Assembly (NCBI GenBank): GCA_022483015.1
Contig: JAKVOB010000001.1
Location: 434,001 to 498,000 of the forward strand
Length of the DNA: 64,000 nucleotides
Reading direction: 5' to 3'
From: Atopobiaceae bacterium
Lineage (GTDB): Bacteria > Actinomycetota > Coriobacteriia > Coriobacteriales > Atopobiaceae
The notes beneath the pieces were generated by a model. It was not told the DNA's origin and searched no databases. It worked only from the letters and a program-made list of their open reading frames with translations. Shown in pieces: positions 4,541 to 17,388 of this stretch. A program made the translations under genes and the position numbers. Within the stretch, counting starts at the first letter, position 1. Every line of letters starts with the position of its first letter.

Positions 4541-6823
4541 CTACGCATCCTCCCCGTCGTCCGCATCATCCGCATCATCCACGAAGTCGGACGTGCCGGG
4601 GTCGGCATCGGGGGCGTCAGGAGCTGAGTCGGCATCGTCTGCCGTGGCTGGCGCCGCAGTCGTGGGCCCGGGAGCAATCACGCGCACGCCGTCGCCGAAC
4701 ACACCGGTGAGCATGGAGGCCACGTCATCCGGGACACCGGCGAGGCCGTCCTGGGAGGCGGCGTCAGGGGCGTCGGCGTCGGCAGGCGATGGAGCCGGGG
4801 CCGTGCCGGGATCGGGGACCTCGTTGGCGATGATGAGGGGCGGCTCGGCAGGCATGTCGGGGAGCGGGTCGATGTCGGTCGGGACGAAGGAGTCATCGAA
4901 GGGTGGCTCGTCATCGGGGGTTGGGGCCGGGGCAGGCATCGGTGCCGGGGCCGGTGCGGGCGCGGACATGGGTGCAGGGGCTGGCGCAGGCCGAGGCGCT
5001 GGTGCGGGCGCAGGTGCTGGAGCGGGCGCAGGTGCGGGCGCAGGTGCGGGCGCAGGTGCTGGAGCGGGCGCAGGTGCGGGCGCAGGTGCTGGAGCGGGGG
5101 CCGGAGCAGGGGCCGTCGCAGGTGCGGATGCTGGTGCTGGTGCTGGGTTCTTCTCGTCAGGCGCCACGTACGTCACATGGCGGGGCCCCTCGAAGGACTG
5201 CGACGCGGCGGGTTCCACGACCTGCCTGATGTCCTCGCGCGAGAGCATGCCCTTGGCCCAGGGGCTCTGGACCAGGACCGTGACCGCGGAGCCATCGTCG
5301 CCGAGCGCGGTGGTGTTCATGAGCAACGCGCCACACGAGGGCTTCGTGCGCTTGAGACGGTCGACGACGTCCTCCCAGCGGCGCTGGAGCGCGCCTGCGT
5401 CGGTCACGGGAGCGGACGGCGAGGGAGCGGTCGGCACCGCAGCAGGCGCTGGTGCCGGGGCAGGTCGCGGTGCGGGCTGGGGAGCAGGCGCGGGTCGGGG
5501 AGTCGGCGCAGGCCGAGAGGCAGGCGCAGGGACTGGCCGGGTCGCTGGAGCTGATGCTGGCTGGGACGTTGGCACAGGAGCCGGCTGGGGCGCGGGGGCA
5601 GGGGCTGGCCGGGTCGCTGGAGCTGATGCTGGCGCGGCCACGGGGACCGCACCCTGCACTCCCCCGCCCGGCGCCGCCACCATGCCGGCCTCGAGGGCCG
5701 CGACCCTCTCGCCGAGCGACTCTATGGTGAGGTCCGCCTGCGGACGGGCGATCCTGGTGAGCGCGACCTCGAGCGAGAGACGCTGGTTGGTGGCCATGCG
5801 CATGTCGGTGGCCGCCTCCCCCAGCACGCAGAGCACGCGCGAGAGCCGGTCCGGGCTACCGAAGTCCTTGGCCTGGGCGGCGAGGTCGGCGAGCTCGTCG
5901 GGCGTGGCCGAGACCACACCGTCGCGCGCGCCGGCGACCGACACCACATAGAGGTCGCGCACGCGGGCCGTGAGCTCGCGGCAGAACTGCAGCGGGTCGC
6001 GCCCCTCGTCCACGAGTGTCGCCACCTGATCGAAGATCGCCGGGACGTCACGGCGGGCGACGGCCTCCACACAGGCATCGAGCGTGGCAGAGCTCGTCTC
6101 ACCGAGCAGGTCGCGCGCCGCGCCCACCGTGATGGCGCCGTCACCGAAGACCGAGAGCTGCTCCAACGTCGACAGGGCATCGCGCATGCCGCCGCGCGCA
6201 TGGCGAGCGACCAGCGTGAGGGCCTCCTCGTCGTACGAGAACCCCTCCTTGTCGCACACGTAGGCGAGCCGCCCCACGATGTCGGCGGACGAAATGGCAT
6301 GGAAGTCGAAGCGCTGCACGCGCGAGAGGATCGTCTCGGGAACCTTCTGCGGGTCGGTGGTGCAGAGGACGAAGATGACGTGCGAAGGCGGTTCCTCGAG
6401 GGTCTTGAGCAGGGCGTTGAAGGCCTGCGTCGTGAGCATGTGGACCTCGTCGATGATGTAGACCTTGAAGCGGCCGCGCGCAGGCGCGTAGTCGACGCGG
6501 TTGATGATCTCCTCGCGGACGTTGTCCACACCGGTGCGGCTTGCGGCATCGAGCTCGAGGACGTCGGGGTGCTCGCCCGCAGCGATGAGCTTGCACTCCT
6601 CGCAGGTGCCGTCGGGAAGCTGCCCTGCGCCCTTCTCGCACAGCAGGGCCTTGGCGAGGATGCGCGCCATGGTGGTCTTGCCGGTGCCACGCGGACCGCA
6701 GAACAGGTAGGCATGGCTCACCTTGTCCTCGGTGACGGCATGCTCGAGCGTCGAGACCACATGCTGCTGGCCCACGACGTCGTCGAAGGTGAGCGGACGG
6801 TATTTGCGATAGAGCGACTCCAT
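4541..6823 (-). CDS. dnaX: DNA polymerase III subunit gamma/tau
   Basis: Clamp-loader ATPase of the replisome, 760 residues. Seen: the N-terminal MESLYRKYRPLTFDDVVGQ motif, Walker A GPRGTGKTT (about 43-51), a zinc-module cysteine cluster (C62, C74, C77), the Walker B-like IIDEVHML, and the clamp-loader domain III to about residue 370. After that comes a Pro/Ala-rich linker, a small conserved block (about 460-540, containing DVVDRLKRTKPSCGALL), a long Ala-Pro dipeptide tract and an acidic C-terminus. No poly-A slippery site was seen, so a frameshifted gamma form is not indicated. It heads the operon with ybaB and recR. The long upstream region holds repeats described separately. Confidence 0.95.
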   Translation of the reverse strand: MESLYRKYRPLTFDDVVGQQHVVSTLEHAVTEDKVSHAYLFCGPRGTGKTTMARILAKALLCEKGAGQLPDGTCEECKLIAAGEHPDVLELDAASRTGVDNVREEIINRVDYAPARGRFKVYIIDEVHMLTTQAFNALLKTLEEPPSHVIFVLCTTDPQKVPETILSRVQRFDFHAISSADIVGRLAYVCDKEGFSYDEEALTLVARHARGGMRDALSTLEQLSVFGDGAITVGAARDLLGETSSATLDACVEAVARRDVPAIFDQVATLVDEGRDPLQFCRELTARVRDLYVVSVAGARDGVVSATPDELADLAAQAKDFGSPDRLSRVLCVLGEAATDMRMATNQRLSLEVALTRIARPQADLTIESLGERVAALEAGMVAAPGGGVQGAVPVAAPASAPATRPAPAPAPQPAPVPTSQPASAPATRPVPAPASRPAPTPRPAPAPQPAPRPAPAPAPAAVPTAPSPSAPVTDAGALQRRWEDVVDRLKRTKPSCGALLMNTTALGDDGSAVTVLVQSPWAKGMLSREDIRQVVEPAASQSFEGPRHVTYVAPDEKNPAPAPASAPATAPAPAPAPAPAPAPAPAPAPAPAPAPAPAPAPAPAPAPAPRPAPAPAPMSAPAPAPAPMPAPAPTPDDEPPFDDSFVPTDIDPLPDMPAEPPLIIANEVPDPGTAPAPSPADADAPDAASQDGLAGVPDDVASMLTGVFGDGVRVIAPGPTTAAPATADDADSAPDAPDADPGTSDFVDDADDADDGEDA
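4930..5135 (-). repeat. Ala-Pro coding simple repeat inside dnaX
   Basis: Variants of a 12-nt unit (GGTGCGGGCGCA on the + strand, with GGTGCTGGAGCG variants) are repeated and encode an almost uninterrupted Ala-Pro dipeptide tract in the tau linker. Such tracts form extended, stiff linkers. The repeat could change length by slippage, in steps of 6 nt without losing frame. Confidence 0.8.
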
Positions 6824-7332: not shown

Positions 7333-7890
7333 CTAGGCCTCGTCCACCTCGGTCGTGGCATCACCTTCCTTGTCGTCGGCCTGCTTGCCCTTGCTGTCCG
7401 GCATGATCCAGAACTTGAGCAGCGGGAAGCTGATGATCACAGCAAGCAGCGTGTTGGCCAGCGAGGCGACCGTGGCGGCGAGCTCGGAGCCCATGCCCAG
7501 CTGCGTCGAGCAGAACCCGGTGACATAGCTCGGGAGCACCAGGTTCGCGACCACGATGATCACGGCGAGCACCGCGTACTTGGGCGCCGCCTTCGAGAAC
7601 GACGCGTCGGACTTGAAGACCCACTTCATCTGGACGAAGAAGTTCACCACCTGCGCCAGGACCTCGGCGACGAGGTAGGTGAGGAAGCCCCCCAGGCCGT
7701 TGGAGCCCGCGCTCGTGTAGTTGAAGATGAGGAACGAGAAGGCGCCCGTCAGCCCCATCGCGTTCACGAACACGGCCGTGCCGACCCACGTGCAGACGAA
7801 GCGCGTGATGGTCGATATGTTCGAGAGCACGTTGAACTTGATGAACTCCCAGAGGCCGTTGTGCTTCTCGGTCCATTCCTTGAATGCCAT
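7333..7890 (-). CDS. GtrA-like membrane protein
   Basis: 185-residue membrane protein with about four hydrophobic segments and the GtrA-family core (FLTYLVAEVLAQVVNFF followed by VQMKWVFK), ending in a charged cytoplasmic tail rich in Lys, Asp and Glu. GtrA-like proteins are linked to moving lipid-linked sugars across the membrane or to cell-surface polysaccharide synthesis. The start at 7890 follows AAGGAGAGCA. It lies 64 bp after the permuted GH3 gene on the same strand, with a GC-rich hairpin between them, so the two are probably co-transcribed. Function beyond the family is not determined. Confidence 0.75.
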   Translation of the reverse strand: MAFKEWTEKHNGLWEFIKFNVLSNISTITRFVCTWVGTAVFVNAMGLTGAFSFLIFNYTSAGSNGLGGFLTYLVAEVLAQVVNFFVQMKWVFKSDASFSKAAPKYAVLAVIIVVANLVLPSYVTGFCSTQLGMGSELAATVASLANTLLAVIISFPLLKFWIMPDSKGKQADDKEGDATTEVDEA

Positions 7891-7910
7891 TGCTCTCCTT
7901 CCTCGGTAGG

Positions 7911-7942
7911 GCGGCCGCAGGACCCACGGGACCTGCGGCCGC
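7911..7942 (-). terminator. Intercistronic hairpin between the permuted GH3 gene and the GtrA gene
   Basis: GCGGCCGCAGG (7911-7921) pairs perfectly with 7932-7942 across a 10-nt loop. It has no T-tract, so it may be a leaky terminator or an mRNA-processing/stability structure that lowers GtrA expression relative to the enzyme. Confidence 0.5.
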
Positions 7943-7954
7943 ACACCGGAACCG

Positions 7955-10903
7955 TTACTTCTGGTCAGCCTTCTTGGCTGCCTTCCTGGCGGCCTTGGCG
8001 GCCTTCACGGACTCGTCGGTCTCACCGGCGGCCGTGCGCCTCTTCATGCGCTTGAAGGCGAGCACCTCCATCAGCACGACCAGGGCCGCGATCACGACGT
8101 CGACGACGATCATGACGATCTGCCAGGTAGCCAACTTGAACCCTCCCGTATCGCTTGCGTAGGCGTTGCTGTTGACCGTGGTGTAGAGGATGTCGTGCGC
8201 ACACGTCCTCATTGCCTGGACGCCGGACGCACTCTGGTCGTTCACGGTGTTCACGCCGTTGCTGAGCGTGCAGAGGCAGGCGTCCCCGCCGTTCCTCGAA
8301 GCCTGGTCAGCATTCATGTAGCCGTATCCACCGAAGTAGTCGGTGAGGACCATGCCGTTGAAGCCCCACTCGTTGCGCAGGACGTTCTGGAGCAGGTTCG
8401 AGTTGCCACCGGACCAGGTGGTGCCGATGTAGTTGTAGGAGCTCATGACGGCGGTGGCCCCGCCCTCCTTGACGGCCTTCTCGAAGGGCTTGAGGTAGAC
8501 CTCGCGGATGGACTGCTCGTTTGCCCAGGTGCAGAGCATGCCGCAGCGGTTCGTCTCCTGGTCGTTCAGGGCGAAGTGCTTGATGTAGGCGTAGACGCCA
8601 TGGTCAGCCGCACCAGAGACCTCCTGTGCGGCCATCTCACCAGCCAGCGTGCCGTCCTCGGAGTAGTACTCGAAGTTTCGGCCGCCGAAGGCGGAGCGGT
8701 GCGTGTTCATGGCAGGGCCGTACCAGCCGGAGACGTCCATCTCGTTGGCCATCTTGCCGATGCACTCGCCATACTCGTTCGCGAGCTCGGAGTTCCAGGT
8801 GCACGCCAGCGTGGTCTCGGAGGGAAGGCCGATCGAGCCCTTGCCCGAGAAGTTGTTGTTGATGGCACTGGGACCGTCGCAGTCCGTGGTGGAGACCTTG
8901 CCCACGCTTGCGACCGACGCCGTGTTGTACCCCGCGTTGCCGATGAGGTTGTTCATGTCATCGGTCGTGAGCTGGTCGAGCAGGGTGTCCCATAGCGAGT
9001 CGTCGTAGTCCTTGCCCCGCAGGTCCGAGAGCGTGACGCCGTTGTTGGCACCCGTCGTGGGCATGGTGGCGTTCGGGTCGTCATCGGCAGAGGCGTCATA
9101 GGTGGACGTGTTGGTGAAGCTCGCCTTCTGCTCGTCGGTCATGGAGTAGTTCGTGGGAGCTGCGAGCGCGGCGTCCTTGTTGGCGAAGTGGTCAGCGCGC
9201 GAGAGGTACGTCACGTCGCCCTCTGCGTCCTGGAACTCGTTGGTCGCAGCCGTCTCGTCACTCGAGCGCTTGTTGTCGCCGGAGTAGCGTATGTCGAGAG
9301 GCGCCACATAGGTGCGCTGGTCGAGGATGGTGTGCGAGTCGGAGTTGATCGAGATCTGGTAGTCGCCGGCCTCGAGCACGTAGCTGCCCTCGCCGCTCTC
9401 GTCATAGGACGCCATGTCCTCCTGGCTGAAGGAGATATGGACCGTCTGGCTCGCACCAGGCTGGATCTCGTCGGTCTTGGCATAGGTGATGAGGTTGGCC
9501 GAGGACTTCTCGATGCCGCCGTTGGTGTAGGGCGGGTTGTAGTAGACCTCGACGGCGTCCTTGCCTGCGACGCTCCCGGTGTTGGTCACGGTCACGTCGA
9601 AGCTGATGGTGCCGTCGGCATCCTTCTGGATGTCACCCATCTTCTGGGAGAAGCTGGTGTACGACAGGCCGTATCCGAACGGGTACTGCACCGTGGAGCC
9701 GTAGTCGAGCACTCCCTCCGTCGAAGCGGTCTCATAGTACTTGTAGCCGACGTAGATTCCCTCGGTATAGTCCACGAAGGAGGGCGTCGTCTCGACGGTC
9801 GTGCTGGGACCCATCTGGGAGGTCGTCTTGTACTCGTCCATGTTGTCGTACTCGAAGTCACCGGAGTTGTTGTAGCTGGGCTGGTCGGTGAGGTCGTAGA
9901 CGAAGGTGTCGCTCGTCTTGCCAGAGGGGTTGACCTCGCCCGTGAGGACCTTGCCCAGGGAGTCGAAGCCGGACTGGCCGGCACCGGCGACCCAGAGGAC
10001 GCTCTTGATCTGGGGATAGTCGTTGACCCAGCCCATCTCCATGGTGTTGGCGCCGGTGTAGACCACCGTGACGTCATCGTACTCGCTGCACACCATGTTG
10101 ATCATGTTCTTCTCGCTCTGTGAGAGCTCGAGGTAGCTCTGGCCGGCCTCCCAGTCGTTGTAGTCGGACGAGTTGTTGGTGACGTTGACCTGGCTCATGT
10201 CCTTGGGGAGGTCGTTGCCCTCTCCGCCGATACGCGAGATGACGACGATCGCGGTGTCGGAGTAGTCCTTGCAGTCCGAGAGGAGCTGGTCGGAGTAGGT
10301 GTCGACCGGGGGCTCGGGGGTGGTGTAGTCGTTCTGACCGGTTGCCGGGCTGCCGTCCGCAGGACGGGTGAGCCCGTAGCTGCTATAGAAGTCGGTGAGC
10401 TCGCTGTTGGTCTCGATGCCGGCATCGTTCAAGCCCTCGATGAGGGTCGTGGTGTCGTAGTTGTCGTTGAGGCCGCCGGAGCCGGTACCGCCGTAGCAGG
10501 GGCTCGTGGAGGACCAGCCGAAGACGTTGACCTTCTTGGTGCTCGACGAGAGGGGCAGGTTGGAGTCATCGTTCTTGAGCATGACGATGCCTTCGTCGGT
10601 CACGTCCGTGCCGACCTGGCGTGCCTCCTGGGTGGTCTCGTCAGAGACCTCGGCGCCTGCGCCCGTCGAGAGCGTGAGCAGGTTCGACATCGGGATGAAG
10701 CAGATCAGGTTCACCGCGATGACAAGCGCCGCCGCGACCCCCATGAGGGACTGCGTCCGGATGAACTTCCTCAAGGGCCGGGGCTTCTTCCGCACCGCGA
10801 TGGCAACGACGATGGCCGCTACCGCAACGATGAGAAAGAAGACACCATAGGGGATGCAGTTCTGAAGCGCGCTGATCACATCCGCCATATTGATGCCTAT
10901 CAT
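7955..10903 (-). CDS. Circularly permuted family 3 glycoside hydrolase, membrane-anchored at both ends
   Basis: About 982 residues. Family 3 enzymes normally have an N-terminal barrel followed by a C-terminal alpha/beta domain and FnIII. Here the order is reversed: two membrane segments (about 17-37 and 53-74), the alpha/beta domain (about 90-410, with EGIVMLKNDDSNLPL and PFGYGLSYT), FnIII (about 430-530), then the barrel (about 600-920) with KHFALNDQE and the nucleophile motif VLTDYFGG (Asp near 855). A third membrane segment (about 927-948) and a Lys/Ala-rich tail follow. The catalytic part should lie outside the cell, on a beta-glucoside-like substrate not determined here. The ATG at 10903 follows AAGGAGGAGGAC; a GTG 33 nt upstream is less likely. 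Confidence 0.88.
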   Translation of the reverse strand: MIGINMADVISALQNCIPYGVFFLIVAVAAIVVAIAVRKKPRPLRKFIRTQSLMGVAAALVIAVNLICFIPMSNLLTLSTGAGAEVSDETTQEARQVGTDVTDEGIVMLKNDDSNLPLSSSTKKVNVFGWSSTSPCYGGTGSGGLNDNYDTTTLIEGLNDAGIETNSELTDFYSSYGLTRPADGSPATGQNDYTTPEPPVDTYSDQLLSDCKDYSDTAIVVISRIGGEGNDLPKDMSQVNVTNNSSDYNDWEAGQSYLELSQSEKNMINMVCSEYDDVTVVYTGANTMEMGWVNDYPQIKSVLWVAGAGQSGFDSLGKVLTGEVNPSGKTSDTFVYDLTDQPSYNNSGDFEYDNMDEYKTTSQMGPSTTVETTPSFVDYTEGIYVGYKYYETASTEGVLDYGSTVQYPFGYGLSYTSFSQKMGDIQKDADGTISFDVTVTNTGSVAGKDAVEVYYNPPYTNGGIEKSSANLITYAKTDEIQPGASQTVHISFSQEDMASYDESGEGSYVLEAGDYQISINSDSHTILDQRTYVAPLDIRYSGDNKRSSDETAATNEFQDAEGDVTYLSRADHFANKDAALAAPTNYSMTDEQKASFTNTSTYDASADDDPNATMPTTGANNGVTLSDLRGKDYDDSLWDTLLDQLTTDDMNNLIGNAGYNTASVASVGKVSTTDCDGPSAINNNFSGKGSIGLPSETTLACTWNSELANEYGECIGKMANEMDVSGWYGPAMNTHRSAFGGRNFEYYSEDGTLAGEMAAQEVSGAADHGVYAYIKHFALNDQETNRCGMLCTWANEQSIREVYLKPFEKAVKEGGATAVMSSYNYIGTTWSGGNSNLLQNVLRNEWGFNGMVLTDYFGGYGYMNADQASRNGGDACLCTLSNGVNTVNDQSASGVQAMRTCAHDILYTTVNSNAYASDTGGFKLATWQIVMIVVDVVIAALVVLMEVLAFKRMKRRTAAGETDESVKAAKAARKAAKKADQK

Positions 10904-10993
10904 GTCCTCCTCCTTCTCCTGTGCTCGGCCGGGCACCGCCCGACCTTCTCTGATGGAGCGGACATGCCGTCAGCACGCCCGTCTTTCAGACTG

Positions 10994-11022
10994 AACATAG
11001 GGTGCGAGCAGCCTGCTTCCAA
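10994..11022 (-). promoter_or_regulatory. Candidate promoter for the permuted GH3 gene
   Basis: On the minus strand, TTGGAA (11022-11017) is separated by exactly 17 bp from TATGTT (10999-10994). It lies about 90 bp upstream of the GH3 start. The pattern fits a vegetative sigma factor. It shares the 297-bp divergent region with the LytTR regulator gene, which could control it. Confidence 0.45.
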
Positions 11023-11200
11023 TACCCTTGACGTAGACGGTCGCACACGTGACGTGCCTTGCAAGGGGACTCGGCGGACGGCGTGGCGAACGGTCGCGCG
11101 CCTGGGCAATGCGCACCAAACGGATACGATGGTCCCAACGATATGACATGGCCGTTCGGACGACCATACGGAGCCAGGCCGGAACAGAGGGAGGGGGGAC

Positions 11201-11920
11201 ATGGCAGACTACCAGATACTCGTCGTCGAGGATGACCCCACCGAGTCCAAGCGCCTCTCGGGCTACATCGCCCGCTATGCCTCCGAGCATGGCGAGGGCC
11301 TCTCGGTGACCTGCTACGACACGGCAGTCGACCTCGTCTCGCAGGAACGGACCTTCGACCTCGTATTCCTCGACATCGGCCTCCCTGGCATCTCGGGTAT
11401 GGAGGCGGCCCACCTCCTGCGCGCCTATGACCAGGTCACGCCCATCATCTTCGTGACCGACCTCGCGCAGTACGCCGTCAAGGGCTACGAGGTCGACGCG
11501 CTCGACTTCATGGTGAAGCCCGTGAGCTACTACGCCTTCTCCATGCGCATGGACAAGGCCATGCGCCACATCAAGCGCAGCGCCCGCCGCTCGATCGCCC
11601 TCACGATGCCCGACGGCCTGCGGACCGTCCCCGTGGACGACCTCGTCTCGGTGGAGATCACCAACCATACCCTCGTCTACCACGTGTCGGGCGAGCCCGA
11701 GCCGCTCAGGGTGCGCGGCAGCCTCGCCGCAGTCGAGAAGGACCTCGAGGGCGGCCCCTTCGTACGGATCTCGAACAGCTGCCTTGCCAACATGAACCAC
11801 GTCGCGACCGTTCACGGCGGCGACCTCACCATGTCGGACGGCACGCAGCTCTTCTGCAGCCGTTCCAAGAAGCGCGCAGCCCTCGAGACCATCGCCAACT
11901 ACCTGGGCGGGAGCATCTGA
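11201..11920 (+). CDS. LytTR-family response regulator
   Basis: 239 residues: a receiver domain with the acidic pocket VVEDD (about 8-12), phosphorylated Asp in VFLDIGLPG (D58) and the conserved Lys in MVKP, then a LytTR DNA-binding domain (about 135-235, with VEITNHTLVYH and FVRISNSCLANMNHV). This is the AgrA/VirR type that binds short direct repeats. The ATG follows GGGAGGGGGAC. Its stop TGA overlaps the ATG of the following histidine kinase, so the two are translationally coupled. It is divergent from the permuted GH3 gene and the next gene downstream is another GH3, which suggests it regulates glycosidase or surface functions (inference). Confidence 0.9.
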   Translation: MADYQILVVEDDPTESKRLSGYIARYASEHGEGLSVTCYDTAVDLVSQERTFDLVFLDIGLPGISGMEAAHLLRAYDQVTPIIFVTDLAQYAVKGYEVDALDFMVKPVSYYAFSMRMDKAMRHIKRSARRSIALTMPDGLRTVPVDDLVSVEITNHTLVYHVSGEPEPLRVRGSLAAVEKDLEGGPFVRISNSCLANMNHVATVHGGDLTMSDGTQLFCSRSKKRAALETIANYLGGSI

Positions 11921-13260
11921 TGGACGGCATGGACCTGGCACAGCCCCTCGTCACAGCCGCGCAGATCACGGTCGCCATCTACCTGTTCGCACAGACCCTG
12001 CCGCATCGGGAGCACTTCGTGGTGCGCGTCGGCGTCGCGGTCGCGGTGACGCTTCTGGTGGTGGTCGCAAGCACCTGGGTCGGTGACGTCGCCATGCCCG
12101 ACCTCACAGGCACCTACGCCTATCAGACCCAGTTCCTGGTCTTCTCGGCCGTGCTCGTGTTCGCCGTGGGCGTGGTCGTCTTCCTCTTCGACACCTCCGT
12201 GTGGCCAGCCCTGTTCTGCTGCACCGCCGGCTATACCCTCCAGAACCTCGTGAGCGGCACCGAGGGCCTCGCCGACCTCCTTCTGACGCATGCGCTCGGG
12301 ACGGGACCGGGACTGGCCGAGCTCCCACTCGCCGTGTTCTTCTCGATTGCCGCCACCTGTGTCATCTACCTGGGATGCTACCTGCTCCTGATCCGAAAGA
12401 TCGAGCGCGATGGGCTCTCGCTGGTCGAGGACAAGGCGATGCTGCTCATGTGCGCCGTGGTCATCCTGGGCGTCATCGGGTTCGACCTCGTCAACAAGGC
12501 GCTCACCGCCGCCGGCACAGGCTTCTCCTACCTCGTGGCCCTGCGCCTCGTGCATGCGATGGTCTGCATCTTCACGCTGGTCATGGAGTACGAGCTGCTC
12601 TACAACCGCCGCCTGCAGATGGACGTGGCCTCGGTCTCGCGGATCCTGGCCGACGAGGAGAAGCAGTACCGCGTCTCGAAGGAGAACATCGACGCCATCA
12701 ACGTGAAGTGCCACGACATCAGGCACCAGATCCGCCACCTCGAGGGAGCGGGCCAGGTCGTGGACAAGGAGGTGCTCGACGACATCGCACGCGAGGTCGA
12801 CGTCTACGACTCCACGGTCAAGACCGGCAACGACGCGCTCGACGTCATCCTCACCGAGAAGAGCCTGCTGTGCGAGCGCGAGGGCATCGCGCTGTCATGC
12901 ATCGCCGACGGTGCCGCGCTGTCGTTCATGGACGCACCCGACCTGTACGCGCTCTTCGGCAACGCGCTCGACAACGCGTTGGGGGCCGTGCAGGCGATCC
13001 CCGAGACCGGTCGGCGCAGCATATCGCTCATGGTACGGCGCAACGCTGGCATGGCCTGCGTCCACGTGGAGAACTGCTTCGCAGGCCAGCTCACGTTCCA
13101 CGACGGGCTGCCCCAGACCACGCAGGCCGACACGACGAGCCACGGCTTCGGGATGAGGTCGATGGCGCACATCGCCGAGAAGTACCAGGGCACGCTCGCC
13201 TGCTCCGCCACCGACGAGGTCTTCAGCCTCAACGTGATCATGCCGATTCCCGAGGGATAG
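11920..13260 (+). CDS. GHKL-domain sensor histidine kinase (AgrC-like)
   Basis: 446 residues with about six N-terminal membrane segments up to residue 225, a short coiled segment, then the histidine box with CHDIRHQIRHL (His near 265) and a GHKL ATPase domain with the N box GNALDNALGAV and the glycine motif SHGFGMRSM. This architecture matches peptide-sensing AgrC/ComD kinases. The start overlaps the upstream regulator stop (ATGA type). No AgrD-like peptide gene or AgrB protease was seen near it, so the signal is unknown. It converges on the second GH3 gene with 35 bp between stops. Confidence 0.88.
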   Translation: MDGMDLAQPLVTAAQITVAIYLFAQTLPHREHFVVRVGVAVAVTLLVVVASTWVGDVAMPDLTGTYAYQTQFLVFSAVLVFAVGVVVFLFDTSVWPALFCCTAGYTLQNLVSGTEGLADLLLTHALGTGPGLAELPLAVFFSIAATCVIYLGCYLLLIRKIERDGLSLVEDKAMLLMCAVVILGVIGFDLVNKALTAAGTGFSYLVALRLVHAMVCIFTLVMEYELLYNRRLQMDVASVSRILADEEKQYRVSKENIDAINVKCHDIRHQIRHLEGAGQVVDKEVLDDIAREVDVYDSTVKTGNDALDVILTEKSLLCEREGIALSCIADGAALSFMDAPDLYALFGNALDNALGAVQAIPETGRRSISLMVRRNAGMACVHVENCFAGQLTFHDGLPQTTQADTTSHGFGMRSMAHIAEKYQGTLACSATDEVFSLNVIMPIPEG

Positions 13261-13295
13261 CGCGCAGCCGGCGGCCGCGGCGCACGTCGACGTCC

Positions 13296-15830
13296 CTACG
13301 CGCCGTCCTTCTCGGCAAGGCGACGTCCCATGCTGGCGTTGCGGACGAGGTTGGCCACCAGCTCGAAGACGAGCGGCGCCGCGAACCACACGAACCAGAC
13401 CAGCCAGAACCATCCGCCGCAGAGCCACTGCACCAGCAGCGCCGGCACGATGCCCGCGAGGCCCCAGCCCTTGAGCTCGCGCACCAGGGCGTCGACCAGG
13501 CCCATCGAGACCACGTCGCCGGCGTTCTTGGCGAGCGCCCGCATGGGCATGTTGTAGATGAACTCGATGTTGAGGTTGCGCCTGCCCGAGCGGGCCGACG
13601 CCCTCTCGGCACCACGCAGGACGGCCGCGACGACCCAGAAGATCGGGCTGCGCGAGTGGCCCAGGTCGCGGAAGCAGATGTTGCGGTCGATGGTCACCTT
13701 GGGGTTGGGCGGCTGGTGTCCCAGGAGCACCGCGAACTGCGCATCCGGCACGTCCTGGACCTGACCGGAGTCATAGCAGGTCAGATCGAGGCCCTGATAG
13801 GGGTTGGGGGCGTCGGTGCCAGCCACGCTGACCTCGGCCGTGAGACGAACGTCCTCGCACGAGGCAGCGACCTCGATGACGTATGAGCCACCCTCGACCT
13901 CCCAGGCACCGGTCGCCTGGTTGAAGTAACGGAAGGCCCTCTCGTCGAGAGGAACCGTCACGCGCCGGGTCTCGCCTGGGTCAAGCGCGACCTTGGCGAA
14001 CCCCTTGAGCTCACGGACCGGCCGGAAGACCCTGGCGTCCGGCTTGCTCACGTATACCTGGGCGACCTCGGCCCCGGCGACCGCGCCGGTGTTGGTGATG
14101 TCGAACGAGACCTCATCCGGCGTCGCGGCCACGTTGGCATAGGCGAAGGTCGTGTACGAGAGCCCGTAGCCGAACGGGTAGGCCACGTCCACGCCAGCCT
14201 TCTGGTAGTAGCGATATCCCACGTAGATGCCCTCGCGGTACTCGGCAGTGCGGTCGTCGCTGGGGAAGCTCGAGGCACACGCGGTGTCAGCCAGCGACCT
14301 GGCCCAGGTCTCGGCCAGCTTCCCGGAGGGGTTGGTGCGGCCCATGAGCACGTCGAGCGCGGCCGAGGCACCCGCCTGGCCACCCAAGGCGAGGTAGAGC
14401 ACGGAGGCGGCATCCGCGGTCCAACCGGTCTCGACGGAGCTTCCCGCCGAGAGGAGCACGACCACGTTGGGGTTCTTCTCGGCCACCGCATGGAGCAGGT
14501 CGACCTGGTTGGCGTTGAGACGCATGTCGGCGCGGTCGATGCCCTCGCTCTCGGCGAGCTCATCGAGGCCAAGGCAGACCAGCACGACGTCGGCCGTTCC
14601 CGCGAGCGAGACCGCAGCCTCGCGCAAGCGGGCGTCCTCGGCGGCGTCGCCGTCACCCGTGCGGACGAAGCCCTGCTCGTAGCCTACGCAGTCGAGGCCG
14701 GAGCCGGCGATGCCGTCAACGAGGGTGTCGAGCTTGGTGGTGTTGACGAGCGACGAGCCGGCACCCTGGTAGCGCGGGGTCTTGGCGAAGTCGCCGACAA
14801 GGGCCACGCGCGTGCCGGCAGCGAGCGGCAGCAGAGGCCTGTCGCCCGAGACAGGGGCGGCCTCGTTCTTGAGGAGCACGATGCCTGCCGCCGCAATCCT
14901 GCGGGCGAGGTCGTGATGGGCGGCCTTGTCGAAGTCGGGCGCGCCTTCGAGGGCCGTGCGCGTGGAGAGCACGAGGTCGATGGCCTCGTCGACGCGCGCG
15001 TCCACATCATGCACGCTGGTCTCTCCGCACTCGACCGAGCCCACGAGGCGTCGCACCGAATCGAGCCCCGGCGACGGCATCTCGAAGGTCGAGCCTGCTG
15101 CGACGCCGGCAGCATGGTCGTTCGAGCCGCCCCAGTCGGTCACGACCGCTCCGTCGAAGCCCCACTCGCCACGGAGGATGTTGCTAAGCAGGCGCTCGTT
15201 GTCGTTGGCGTAGGTGCCGTTCACGAGGTTGTAGCTGCTCATGATGGACTTGGGATGGCTCTCGCGCACGACGATCTCGAAGGCTGTGAGGTAGATCTCA
15301 CGCAGGGTCCGCTCATCGAGCACGGAGTCGGAGGCCTGCCGACGCGTCTCCTGGCTGTTGACCGCGAAGTGCTTGGGGCAGGCACCCAGGCCGTTCACCT
15401 GGATCCCACGGACGTAGCCGGCCGCCATCTTGCCGGCGAGGAGGGGGTCCTCCGAGAAGTACTCGAAGTCACGGCCGCACAGGGGGCTGCGCTTGATGCA
15501 GAGGCCAGGGCCGAGCACCACGCCCACGCCTTGGGCCGCTGCCTCCTCGCCGAGGGCCTCGCCAAGCTCCTCGCCCAACTTGGGATCCCACGAGTCGGCC
15601 ACGGTCACGGCCGTGGGGAAGCAGGTCGCCGGCATCGAGCCGCCGATGCCCAGGTGGTTGGCCACGTTGGGGTCCTGATGACGCATGCCGTGGGGGCCGT
15701 CCGAGAACTGCAGCTCGGGGATGCCGAGCTTGGGATAGGCGCGCGTGCCGAAGGCGGAGGCACCAGAGAGCAGCGCGCACTTCTGCTCGAGGTCCATCTT
15801 GGCGATGATGTCGGCATGCTTGAGGCTCAT
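13296..15830 (-). CDS. Family 3 glycoside hydrolase (beta-glucosidase-like) with C-terminal membrane region
   Basis: 844 residues in the normal GH3 order: barrel (about 1-290) with FSDGPHGMR, CGRDFEYFSEDP, KHFAVNSQETRR and nucleophile Asp232 in VVTDWGGSND; alpha/beta domain (about 320-560) with GIVLLKNEAAPV; FnIII (about 590-680). A tail of about 150 residues follows and includes one or two strongly hydrophobic segments near 770-825 and a charged end. No signal peptide is present, so the enzyme may face the cytoplasm, in contrast with the permuted enzyme nearby. The start at 15830 follows a purine-rich leader (GGAACG); the upstream extension to 15911 lacks support. Confidence 0.9.
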   Translation of the reverse strand: MSLKHADIIAKMDLEQKCALLSGASAFGTRAYPKLGIPELQFSDGPHGMRHQDPNVANHLGIGGSMPATCFPTAVTVADSWDPKLGEELGEALGEEAAAQGVGVVLGPGLCIKRSPLCGRDFEYFSEDPLLAGKMAAGYVRGIQVNGLGACPKHFAVNSQETRRQASDSVLDERTLREIYLTAFEIVVRESHPKSIMSSYNLVNGTYANDNERLLSNILRGEWGFDGAVVTDWGGSNDHAAGVAAGSTFEMPSPGLDSVRRLVGSVECGETSVHDVDARVDEAIDLVLSTRTALEGAPDFDKAAHHDLARRIAAAGIVLLKNEAAPVSGDRPLLPLAAGTRVALVGDFAKTPRYQGAGSSLVNTTKLDTLVDGIAGSGLDCVGYEQGFVRTGDGDAAEDARLREAAVSLAGTADVVLVCLGLDELAESEGIDRADMRLNANQVDLLHAVAEKNPNVVVLLSAGSSVETGWTADAASVLYLALGGQAGASAALDVLMGRTNPSGKLAETWARSLADTACASSFPSDDRTAEYREGIYVGYRYYQKAGVDVAYPFGYGLSYTTFAYANVAATPDEVSFDITNTGAVAGAEVAQVYVSKPDARVFRPVRELKGFAKVALDPGETRRVTVPLDERAFRYFNQATGAWEVEGGSYVIEVAASCEDVRLTAEVSVAGTDAPNPYQGLDLTCYDSGQVQDVPDAQFAVLLGHQPPNPKVTIDRNICFRDLGHSRSPIFWVVAAVLRGAERASARSGRRNLNIEFIYNMPMRALAKNAGDVVSMGLVDALVRELKGWGLAGIVPALLVQWLCGGWFWLVWFVWFAAPLVFELVANLVRNASMGRRLAEKDGA

Positions 15831-15935
15831 GGGACGTTCCTTCCAGACGTGGGGCCGCGTTCGGGTCGCCTTCCGTTCAGGCTGCGGTTTGCCGGCGGTC
15901 GCGCAGGTCACGGCCGCCGCTTGTTTCCGAGCACC

Positions 15936-15963
15936 AAGATACGGCAGTCCTCGCGCGCGTAAA
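15936..15963 (-). promoter_or_regulatory. Candidate promoter for the canonical GH3 gene
   Basis: Minus-strand TTTACG (15963-15958) and TATCTT (15941-15936) are separated by 16 bp and lie about 105 bp before the GH3 start. The 328-bp divergent region 15831-16158 contains nothing else that I can support. Confidence 0.45.
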
Positions 15964-16158
15964 GGGCCCTGTCGTAACCCGTCGGTCCGCTGACGAGGTC
16001 AGTAGGTGCCAGGCATATGGCTTGGGCGAACGGCAGGGCCAGCAGAGGCCGGCCCGCCGGTCGCACCCCCGGTGACGCACCGTCTGCGCAGCCACGACCC
16101 GACCAGGCTGGGTATCATCCCATCGACGACCACCCCGCTGCCCCGATCCGGAGGAACC

Positions 16159-17388
16159 ATGGCACATCTGCTCGACTACCTCGACTGGTACGGAGACCTC
16201 GACTTCGATGCGGTCCCGTTCAACGAGGTCGACAACCTCATCCTGTCCCAGGTCTCCTATCTCGACCTCTCGGCTGTCGTCCCTGCAGGCGAGCCCATCG
16301 ACCTGTCGCACGCTGCCCGGGCGTTCGCCGACCACACCGCGAGCGAGGACCTCGGGCCGCTCCTCTCGCCCGACCTCATGGACCTGCTCCAGCGCATGGC
16401 CTCCACAGGAAGGCGCTTCTCGGGGGCGACGTTGTCTGCATACGAGTCGGTCCTCGACGTCGCCACTCACGAGCAGTTCGGCGCGGTCGTCGTGGGTCTG
16501 GCCGACGGCAGCAGCTACGTCTCGTTCCGTGGGACCGACGCCTCGCTCGTAGGATGGCTCGAGGACTGCGAGATGAGCTACAAGGTGGTGCCGTCGCAGG
16601 TGCATGCCCTCGACTACCTCGAGCGAGTGGGTGCCGCGACCTCGGGGCCACTCCACGTGGGTGGCCACTCCAAGGGCGGCAACCTCGCCGCCTATGCCAC
16701 GAGCCGCTGCTCGCAGGCGATCCGCGACCGCGTCGTCGCCGTGTGGTGCAACGACTCCCCCGGCTTCGACGAGCAGGTCGTCCCGCTTGCCAGCCTGGAG
16801 CCCATCGCCAGCAGGATCCACCTCTTCACGCCGGGATACTCCGTGGTGGGAGCCCTCTTCGAGCACCTGGCCGACCCCGTGGTGGTGAGGTCGGACGGCG
16901 TGGGCATCATGGAGCACAGCGCCATGGACTGGCGTGTCATGCGCGGCGACCTGGTGCGGGGCGAACGTCCAGGCGATGGCACCGTCTACGTGAACAAGGC
17001 CTTTGACCAGCTGCTCTGCTCACGTGACCTGACAGGGCGCAAGAAGTTGCTCGACGACCTCTACCAGGCCCTGGCCGTGCAGGGAATCACGTCGCTCGAT
17101 GACATGCTCTCGAACGGCGGGGCCGGGCTGGCCTCGACGCTCGCCTCGCTGCAGTCGCTCGATGACGACGACCGCAAGGTCATGCAGGACTTCCTCTGGG
17201 GCATCGCGGGAGGTGCCATGGCCGATGCCGTGGCACCGGCGGCAAAGCAGCTGGGGGATGCCGTGAGCGGGGCCATCGCCGACGCGCGGGCCGGAGCGCA
17301 GCAGCTCGTGGCCGACCTCAAGGCCCGAAGCGAGGAGACGAGGGACGACGACCAGCCGGGACTTCCCGCAGCCGACGAGGAGTCTTAG
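16159..17388 (+). CDS. Lipase-like alpha/beta hydrolase (DUF2974/Mbeg1-like)
   Basis: 409 residues. It has the lipase-3-like pattern: an oxyanion/lid region YVSFRGTD (about 120-127), the nucleophile elbow GGHSKGGNLA (Ser171), and downstream Asp (NDSPGFDE) and His (MEHSAMDW) candidates for a catalytic triad. No signal peptide is seen. The C-terminal 100 residues are helical and charged, ending in an acidic tail. The start at 16159 follows CCGGAGGAACC. Family members are annotated as putative lipases of unknown substrate. It stands alone, divergent from the GH3 gene and followed by a 194-bp palindromic element. Confidence 0.7.
   Translation: MAHLLDYLDWYGDLDFDAVPFNEVDNLILSQVSYLDLSAVVPAGEPIDLSHAARAFADHTASEDLGPLLSPDLMDLLQRMASTGRRFSGATLSAYESVLDVATHEQFGAVVVGLADGSSYVSFRGTDASLVGWLEDCEMSYKVVPSQVHALDYLERVGAATSGPLHVGGHSKGGNLAAYATSRCSQAIRDRVVAVWCNDSPGFDEQVVPLASLEPIASRIHLFTPGYSVVGALFEHLADPVVVRSDGVGIMEHSAMDWRVMRGDLVRGERPGDGTVYVNKAFDQLLCSRDLTGRKKLLDDLYQALAVQGITSLDDMLSNGGAGLASTLASLQSLDDDDRKVMQDFLWGIAGGAMADAVAPAAKQLGDAVSGAIADARAGAQQLVADLKARSEETRDDDQPGLPAADEES

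Follow-up and report, generated by a model that had tools for sequence, protein, structure and literature searches.

The window analysed here is a 64,000-nucleotide stretch of an Atopobiaceae genome (assembly GCA_022483015.1, contig JAKVOB010000001.1) which carries, at positions 7333-15830, five genes encoding two glycoside hydrolases of family GH3, one of normal (nGH3) and one of permuted domain order (pGH3), a GtrA-like membrane protein, a LytTR-type response regulator and a GHKL histidine kinase. Comparison of related loci at the sequence level shows nGH3 and GtrA as a core pair, accompanied across two phyla by pGH3 and the GHKL/LytTR pair. Tentatively, and with slightly less than an even chance of being right, these genes are read as a self-contained, sensor-controlled membrane module that removes beta-linked sugars with GtrA as membrane partner. 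The locus was examined through Pfam domain matches, hydrophobic-helix prediction and AlphaFold2 models (Table 1). An initial sequence-only reading had located the five genes and Pfam backs all of them, with the starts of pGH3 (likely 10903; the longest open reading frame extends to 10936, an alternative GTG start) and GtrA (likely 7890) adjusted. The regulator and kinase genes share one base (11920) and sit between the two GH3 genes on the opposite strand.

The grouping of the genes is evident far beyond the window. A search of named genomes seeded with pGH3 returned 80 loci, mostly from Lachnospiraceae, Butyrivibrio and Oscillospiraceae, with Clostridium saudiense and three Enterococcus species in addition, and alignments were mostly end to end, helices included. 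In the 63 Bacillota loci with >12 kb of sequence, on which synteny was counted, GtrA and nGH3 each lie within 6.5 kb of pGH3 in 43 and the kinase in 37, with all five genes present in 34. Gene order in these loci (RR, response regulator; HK, histidine kinase) is RR-HK-nGH3-GtrA-pGH3, RR-HK-pGH3-nGH3-GtrA or divergent as in the window. A second search, seeded with GtrA across 140 genomes of the window's own family, gave 40 loci that were read; here nGH3 is found within 234 bp of GtrA in 36/40, while pGH3 and the kinase occur within 6.5 kb in 15/40 and 13/40, respectively. GtrA orthologues are mostly 60-78% identical over about 40 Atopobiaceae genomes. In one genome nGH3 and GtrA are naturally fused in a single frame of 1045 residues (L188:9760-12897, minus strand). 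A second suspected fusion, in locus L199, proved to be a spurious long frame with GtrA merely adjacent to nGH3. Given the adjacency counts and the fusion, nGH3-GtrA is taken as the core and pGH3 and the sensor as frequent partners. The synteny comparison, named beforehand as the test of a functional link between the GH3s, GtrA and the two-component system, left that link standing. The proposed island thus holds insofar as its genes belong together; it is not restricted to Coriobacteriia, the module being shared with Bacillota.

The first GH3 had been described as having swapped domains and helices at both ends, and Pfam order, hydrophobic helices and structural model all agree with this. Pfam places GH3_C at residues 106-387, Fn3 at 451-523 and GH3_N at 692-885, a sandwich-Fn3-barrel order, with hydrophobic helices at 19-37, 52-70 and 929-947. 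The AlphaFold2 model (predicted local distance difference test, pLDDT, 88; predicted template modelling score, pTM, 0.87) contains the corresponding helices at 6-39, 42-69 and 926-958. Positive charge marks the loop between the first two helices (+7) and the C-terminal tail (+8), and negative charge the flanks of the catalytic part, a pattern that predicts an outward orientation of that part. As modelled, pGH3 should therefore be membrane-anchored with its catalytic part outside, in keeping with the outward-facing barrel first proposed. Fold search returned 5wvp/5wug and 5k6l-o at ranks 1-6, with the next best match much lower. All 40 sequences compared keep the nucleophile D855 and the acid/base E228, whereas Ile681/Asn682 stand in place of the Arg of the canonical DGPxGxR motif and the nucleophile is followed by Tyr instead of Trp. 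From these residues pGH3 may be predicted to prefer a different sugar at the -1 site. Galactofuranosidase identity was considered and set aside, the context being no more than suggestive.

In a tree of 95 pGH3 sequences, built by a quick method and with some long branches unreliable, the window protein groups with two relatives of the same family and the full module is scattered over Enterococcaceae, Clostridiaceae, Lachnospiraceae, Oscillospiraceae and Atopobiaceae. A pGH3 clade outside the module (L068, L071, L074, L076, L093, L104) is found downstream of an aldose-1-epimerase-like gene, as read in L068, with a permease-like gene next, lactate-permease-like in L071.

The second enzyme, nGH3, has the Pfam order GH3_N 66-234, GH3_C 317-559 and Fn3 588-657, and its model (pLDDT 85) has 8j9f, 7ms2 and 5wab as nearest solved structures. 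All of its canonical active-site residues that were checked (D44, R50, R120, K153, H154, R164, Y200, D232, W233, E427 and E429) are invariant across 46 sequences, and on such residue conservation both GH3s should be active retaining beta-glycosidases. A signal peptide was looked for in the sequence and none was seen. The C-terminal extension of about 170 residues (676-844), a feature absent from the sequence-only reading, is helical, is kept in relatives and ends hydrophobically in Atopobiaceae; it matches no Pfam family, and fold-search matches cover the GH3 core only. Since nGH3 combines a membrane-seeking tail with the absence of a signal peptide, the two GH3s probably face opposite sides of the membrane.

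The sensor pair consists of a regulator with Response_reg (PF00072) and LytTR (PF04397) domains and a HATPase_c_5 (PF14501) kinase, the only one of its kind in the window's genome. A search seeded with this kinase (E below 1e-40) found the family in 51 of the 140 family genomes, with up to nine copies each. Another 20 Atopobiaceae loci contain 28 kinase copies, of which 23 lie within 2.5 kb of an exported GH3, be it a permuted, membrane-anchored one or one of twin-arginine translocation (Tat) type; this count is 9/28 without Tat-type GH3 queries, and three of the five remaining copies lie near the end of a contig or stretch. The sensor-enzyme link is real and testable. Tat-type exported GH3s were observed beside GHKL/LytTR pairs in Atopobiaceae at L274:12018-14456 and also in L263, L267-L272, L279 and L280, often with a permuted GH3 just downstream. 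In Butyrivibrio, the modules contain a GGDEF membrane protein, a multi-helix protein encoded between kinase and pGH3 (L046:8672-9805 and other Butyrivibrio loci), an insertion which suggests cyclic-di-GMP input in these rumen bacteria.

These pairings bear on the nature of the signal. The window's kinase, a GHKL HATPase_c_5 protein with six helices, and its LytTR partner are what would be expected of Agr-like peptide quorum sensing controlling expression of surface GH3s, and the sensing had initially been called peptide-type. That label is not sustained: AgrB (PF04647) has no match in the window's genome, the 35-bp HK-nGH3 gap and the RR-HK overlap exclude a peptide gene at those spots, and the kinase paralogues each tend to pair with an exported GH3. 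An Agr-like system is accordingly considered very improbable, and a peptide trigger of any kind unlikely owing to the missing AgrB and the pairing of kinase copies with exported GH3s. A small linear peptide gene elsewhere is possible; a glycoside or glycoside product would be the simpler signal.

Regulation of the GH3 operons may be read from their upstream regions. LytTR regulators bind paired half-sites of consensus [TA][AC][CA]GTTN[AG][TG]. Upstream of Bacillota GH3 operons (18 non-redundant loci), direct repeats occur at exactly 21 bp with a z of 7.2; neither the other periods between 12 and 35 nor the upstream regions used as controls exceed z 3.8. In five loci the repeats match the consensus at 18/18 positions, for example ACCGTTTAT-N12-ACCGTTTGT. 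The comparison shows putative LytTR-type operators upstream of these operons; no excess of the consensus, as autoregulation might give, was seen upstream of the regulator gene. In the window, a check of 10904-11200 and 15831-16158 gave no clear repeat, and the intergenic regions hold no 9-mer direct repeat with <=1 mismatch at 20-24 bp. The weak candidate at 11116-11144 is not conserved in the two nearest relatives, and the window shares no clear site with them.

Under the module reading, the kinase would sense an outside glycoside or its product, not a peptide, and the LytTR regulator would turn on the GH3 operon. At the membrane surface, pGH3 would then trim an amphipathic or lipid-near glycoside at its outer end. 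GtrA would pass or present the remainder, or the lipid carrier of that remainder, to the inner face, and nGH3, kept at this face by GtrA and by its own C-terminal extension, would remove the last sugar. A more specific proposal makes GtrA the membrane subunit of a hydrolytic, not biosynthetic, system, carrying polyprenyl-phosphate sugars or amphipathic glycosides between the GH3s on opposite faces and so allowing sensor-controlled recycling or uptake without a conventional sugar transporter; this version is doubtful as it stands. Degradation of a surface glycan or glycolipid, as originally suggested, is possible. As substrate, glycosides supplied from outside are judged somewhat likelier than lipid-linked sugars of the cell itself, and the expansion of kinase-GH3 pairs favours the former.

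Several observations weigh against the module reading. The window GtrA scores 32.9 bits against a cut-off of 26.1 for PF04138 (GtrA_DPMS_TM), barely above it, and some relatives fall just under (25.6, 24.6). Many Atopobiaceae keep nGH3-GtrA without a nearby kinase or pGH3, so the two halves are separable, and the 21-bp repeat signal in Atopobiaceae is weak (z 3.2) and not significant. Where their function is known, GtrA proteins carry polyprenyl-phosphate sugars outward to serve synthesis. The optional glycosyltransferase of family 2 (GT2) and the Enterococcus UDP-galactopyranose mutase, described below, likewise point to synthesis or remodelling over breakdown, and together with GtrA they favour lipid-linked or envelope sugars as substrate.

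GT2 (51-92% identical, full length) is found at the module end or nearby in three Enterococcus species, Faecalicatena orotica, B. fibrisolvens 16/4, a Lachnospiraceae metagenome-assembled genome (MAG) and two modules of one Eubacteriales MAG. No membrane helices are apparent in it, and its best alignments are to soluble GT2 enzymes; in the window, where a GtrB-type GT2 with membrane helices was looked for, the module has no GT2. The mutase adjoins the kinase in all three Enterococcus modules. In the window's genome, the only mutase gene lies directly upstream of the only close GT2 relative (L231:4732-7011; C1:1488731-1491010), which is 46% identical to the module GT2 and is followed by a GT8-like reading frame. 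These partners are the basis of an alternative in which the module would serve to remodel the envelope of its own cell: GtrA would flip a polyprenyl-phosphate sugar or glycolipid, possibly galactofuranose-based and made by GT2 from UDP-Galf, the GH3s would trim or recycle it on either face, and the kinase would sense envelope stress. GtrA family membership, the GT2 of some modules, the mutase in both settings, the occurrence of GT2 by itself outside the module, for example next to genes for a YegS/DagK-like lipid kinase and for a PAP2-like protein, and the lack of a nutrient transporter in the module are all in its favour. However, most modules have no GT2, the mutase is not adjacent to GT2 in L218-L226, and the kinase family has expanded alongside exported GH3s that lack a neighbouring GtrA, which better fits the sensing of many outside substrates. 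Envelope remodelling is therefore a possibility of real but lesser weight, and on balance unlikely.

No ABC, PTS or GPH sugar transporter is encoded within the module, and Pfam tallies of the variable flanks reveal no enrichment of a sugar transporter, a kinase or any other partner, from which the module appears self-contained; tallies of neighbours for a nutrient versus an envelope role were enriched in neither direction. This matters for the view that the locus is an ordinary polysaccharide utilisation locus (PUL), in which surface and cytoplasmic beta-glucosidases act on plant oligosaccharides with GtrA and the sensor incidental. The GH3 relatives are beta-glucosidases of plant glycans and plant glucosides, most of the taxa are bacteria of the gut and rumen, certain pGH3s that lie outside the module neighbour aldose-epimerase-like or permease genes, and such loci have been classed as PULs (Kelly et al., 2010; PMC2914790). 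Gram-positive PULs, on the other hand, contain a transporter (PMC5320581), and here none is present or enriched around. Nor is GtrA incidental, being the most tightly kept partner and once fused to nGH3. A plain PUL is thus judged improbable, and the self-contained, GtrA-partnered module is retained as the preferred reading.

Table 1. Features of the GH3-GtrA-LytTR/GHKL locus, in window coordinates.
Feature	Position	Strand	Basis
GtrA-like membrane protein	7333..7890	-	186 aa, 4 predicted helices; Pfam PF04138
Permuted GH3 beta-glycosidase (pGH3), predicted	7955..10903	-	982 aa; domain order, invariant D855/E228, fold match to 5k6o/5wvp
pGH3 C-terminal membrane helix (aa 929-947), then +8 tail	8063..8119	-	helix prediction, model, charges
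pGH3 N-terminal membrane helices (two, aa 19-70) and intervening +7 loop	10694..10849	-	helix prediction, model, charges
Divergent pGH3/response regulator promoter region	10904..11200	.	sequence; Bacillota equivalents with 21-bp direct repeats
Weak LytTR-site candidate	11116..11144	-	spacing 22 bp, 16/18 to consensus
LytTR-type response regulator	11201..11920	+	239 aa; Pfam PF00072 and PF04397
GHKL histidine kinase	11920..13260	+	446 aa, 6 helices; Pfam PF14501
Normal-order GH3 beta-glycosidase (nGH3), predicted	13296..15830	-	844 aa; Pfam, invariant active-site residues, model
Conserved C-terminal extension of nGH3 (aa 676-844)	13299..13805	-	helical, hydrophobic end, no Pfam family

Outside the conserved module, an Mbeg1-like (PF11187) protein of alpha/beta-hydrolase type adjoins nGH3 at 16158-17388. 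A DnaX-like gene for DNA polymerase III subunit gamma/tau lies at 4541-6823 on the minus strand, with a long proline-alanine tract that gives spurious long frames on the opposite strand.

That five genes stay together as a module in groups as different as Enterococcus and Atopobiaceae, and that one kinase family seems dedicated to exported GH3s, suggests an undescribed form of membrane glycoside sensing and stripping by gut and rumen anaerobes. GtrA proteins would gain a possible hydrolytic partner, and a so far unassigned GHKL/LytTR family would gain a target and an operator that can be tested. Were the substrate dietary, the module would bear on the release of plant aglycones by gut bacteria; were it the cell's own lipid-linked sugar, a new route of envelope recycling would be at hand.

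Parts of this arrangement have precedents. Permuted GH3s are already known (PMC5104943; PMC11233000), and the subfamily of GlyA1 (PDB 5k6l-o), the Paenibacillus barengoltzii enzyme (5wug/5wvp) and BrGH3A has the same sandwich-Fn3-barrel order as pGH3. GlyA1 shares its fold (target template modelling score 0.82), nucleophile and acid/base. The published permuted enzymes are soluble, whereas pGH3 has three membrane helices, one of which replaces the C-terminal domain of GlyA1; pGH3 also differs from the subfamily in its Ile/Asn for the DGPxGxR Arg and in its Tyr after the nucleophile.

The pairing of LytTR regulators with secreted GH3s is not new either: three such regulators of Butyrivibrio proteoclasticus B316 (PUL7, 21 and 33) each have close by a secreted GH3 that carries a C-terminal helix (Kelly et al., 2010; PMC2914790). 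This resembles the module and is probably the same system. The report is a single sentence on one genome, without the permutation, the second GH3, GtrA, the fusion, the binding sites or the spread to other phyla. Among the papers searched for GtrA with GH3 and LytTR, it alone touches the combination, and a search that left subscription papers mostly outside its reach returned no paper on the GtrA link, second GH3, fusion, operator or cross-phylum spread.

With Agr-type GHKL/LytTR systems the module shares kinase and regulator families and a putative operator of LytTR-type direct repeats, clear in Bacillota; it differs in having no AgrB/AgrD and in that an exported GH3 is neighbour and putative target. 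The GtrABX and CsbB-GtcA-YfhO systems have a GtrA-family protein in common with it, and in some module species a GT2 beside GtrA. Unlike in those systems, the module GT2 is often missing and, where present, without visible membrane helices; a GT-C transferase was not seen, and GtrA is tied to hydrolases.

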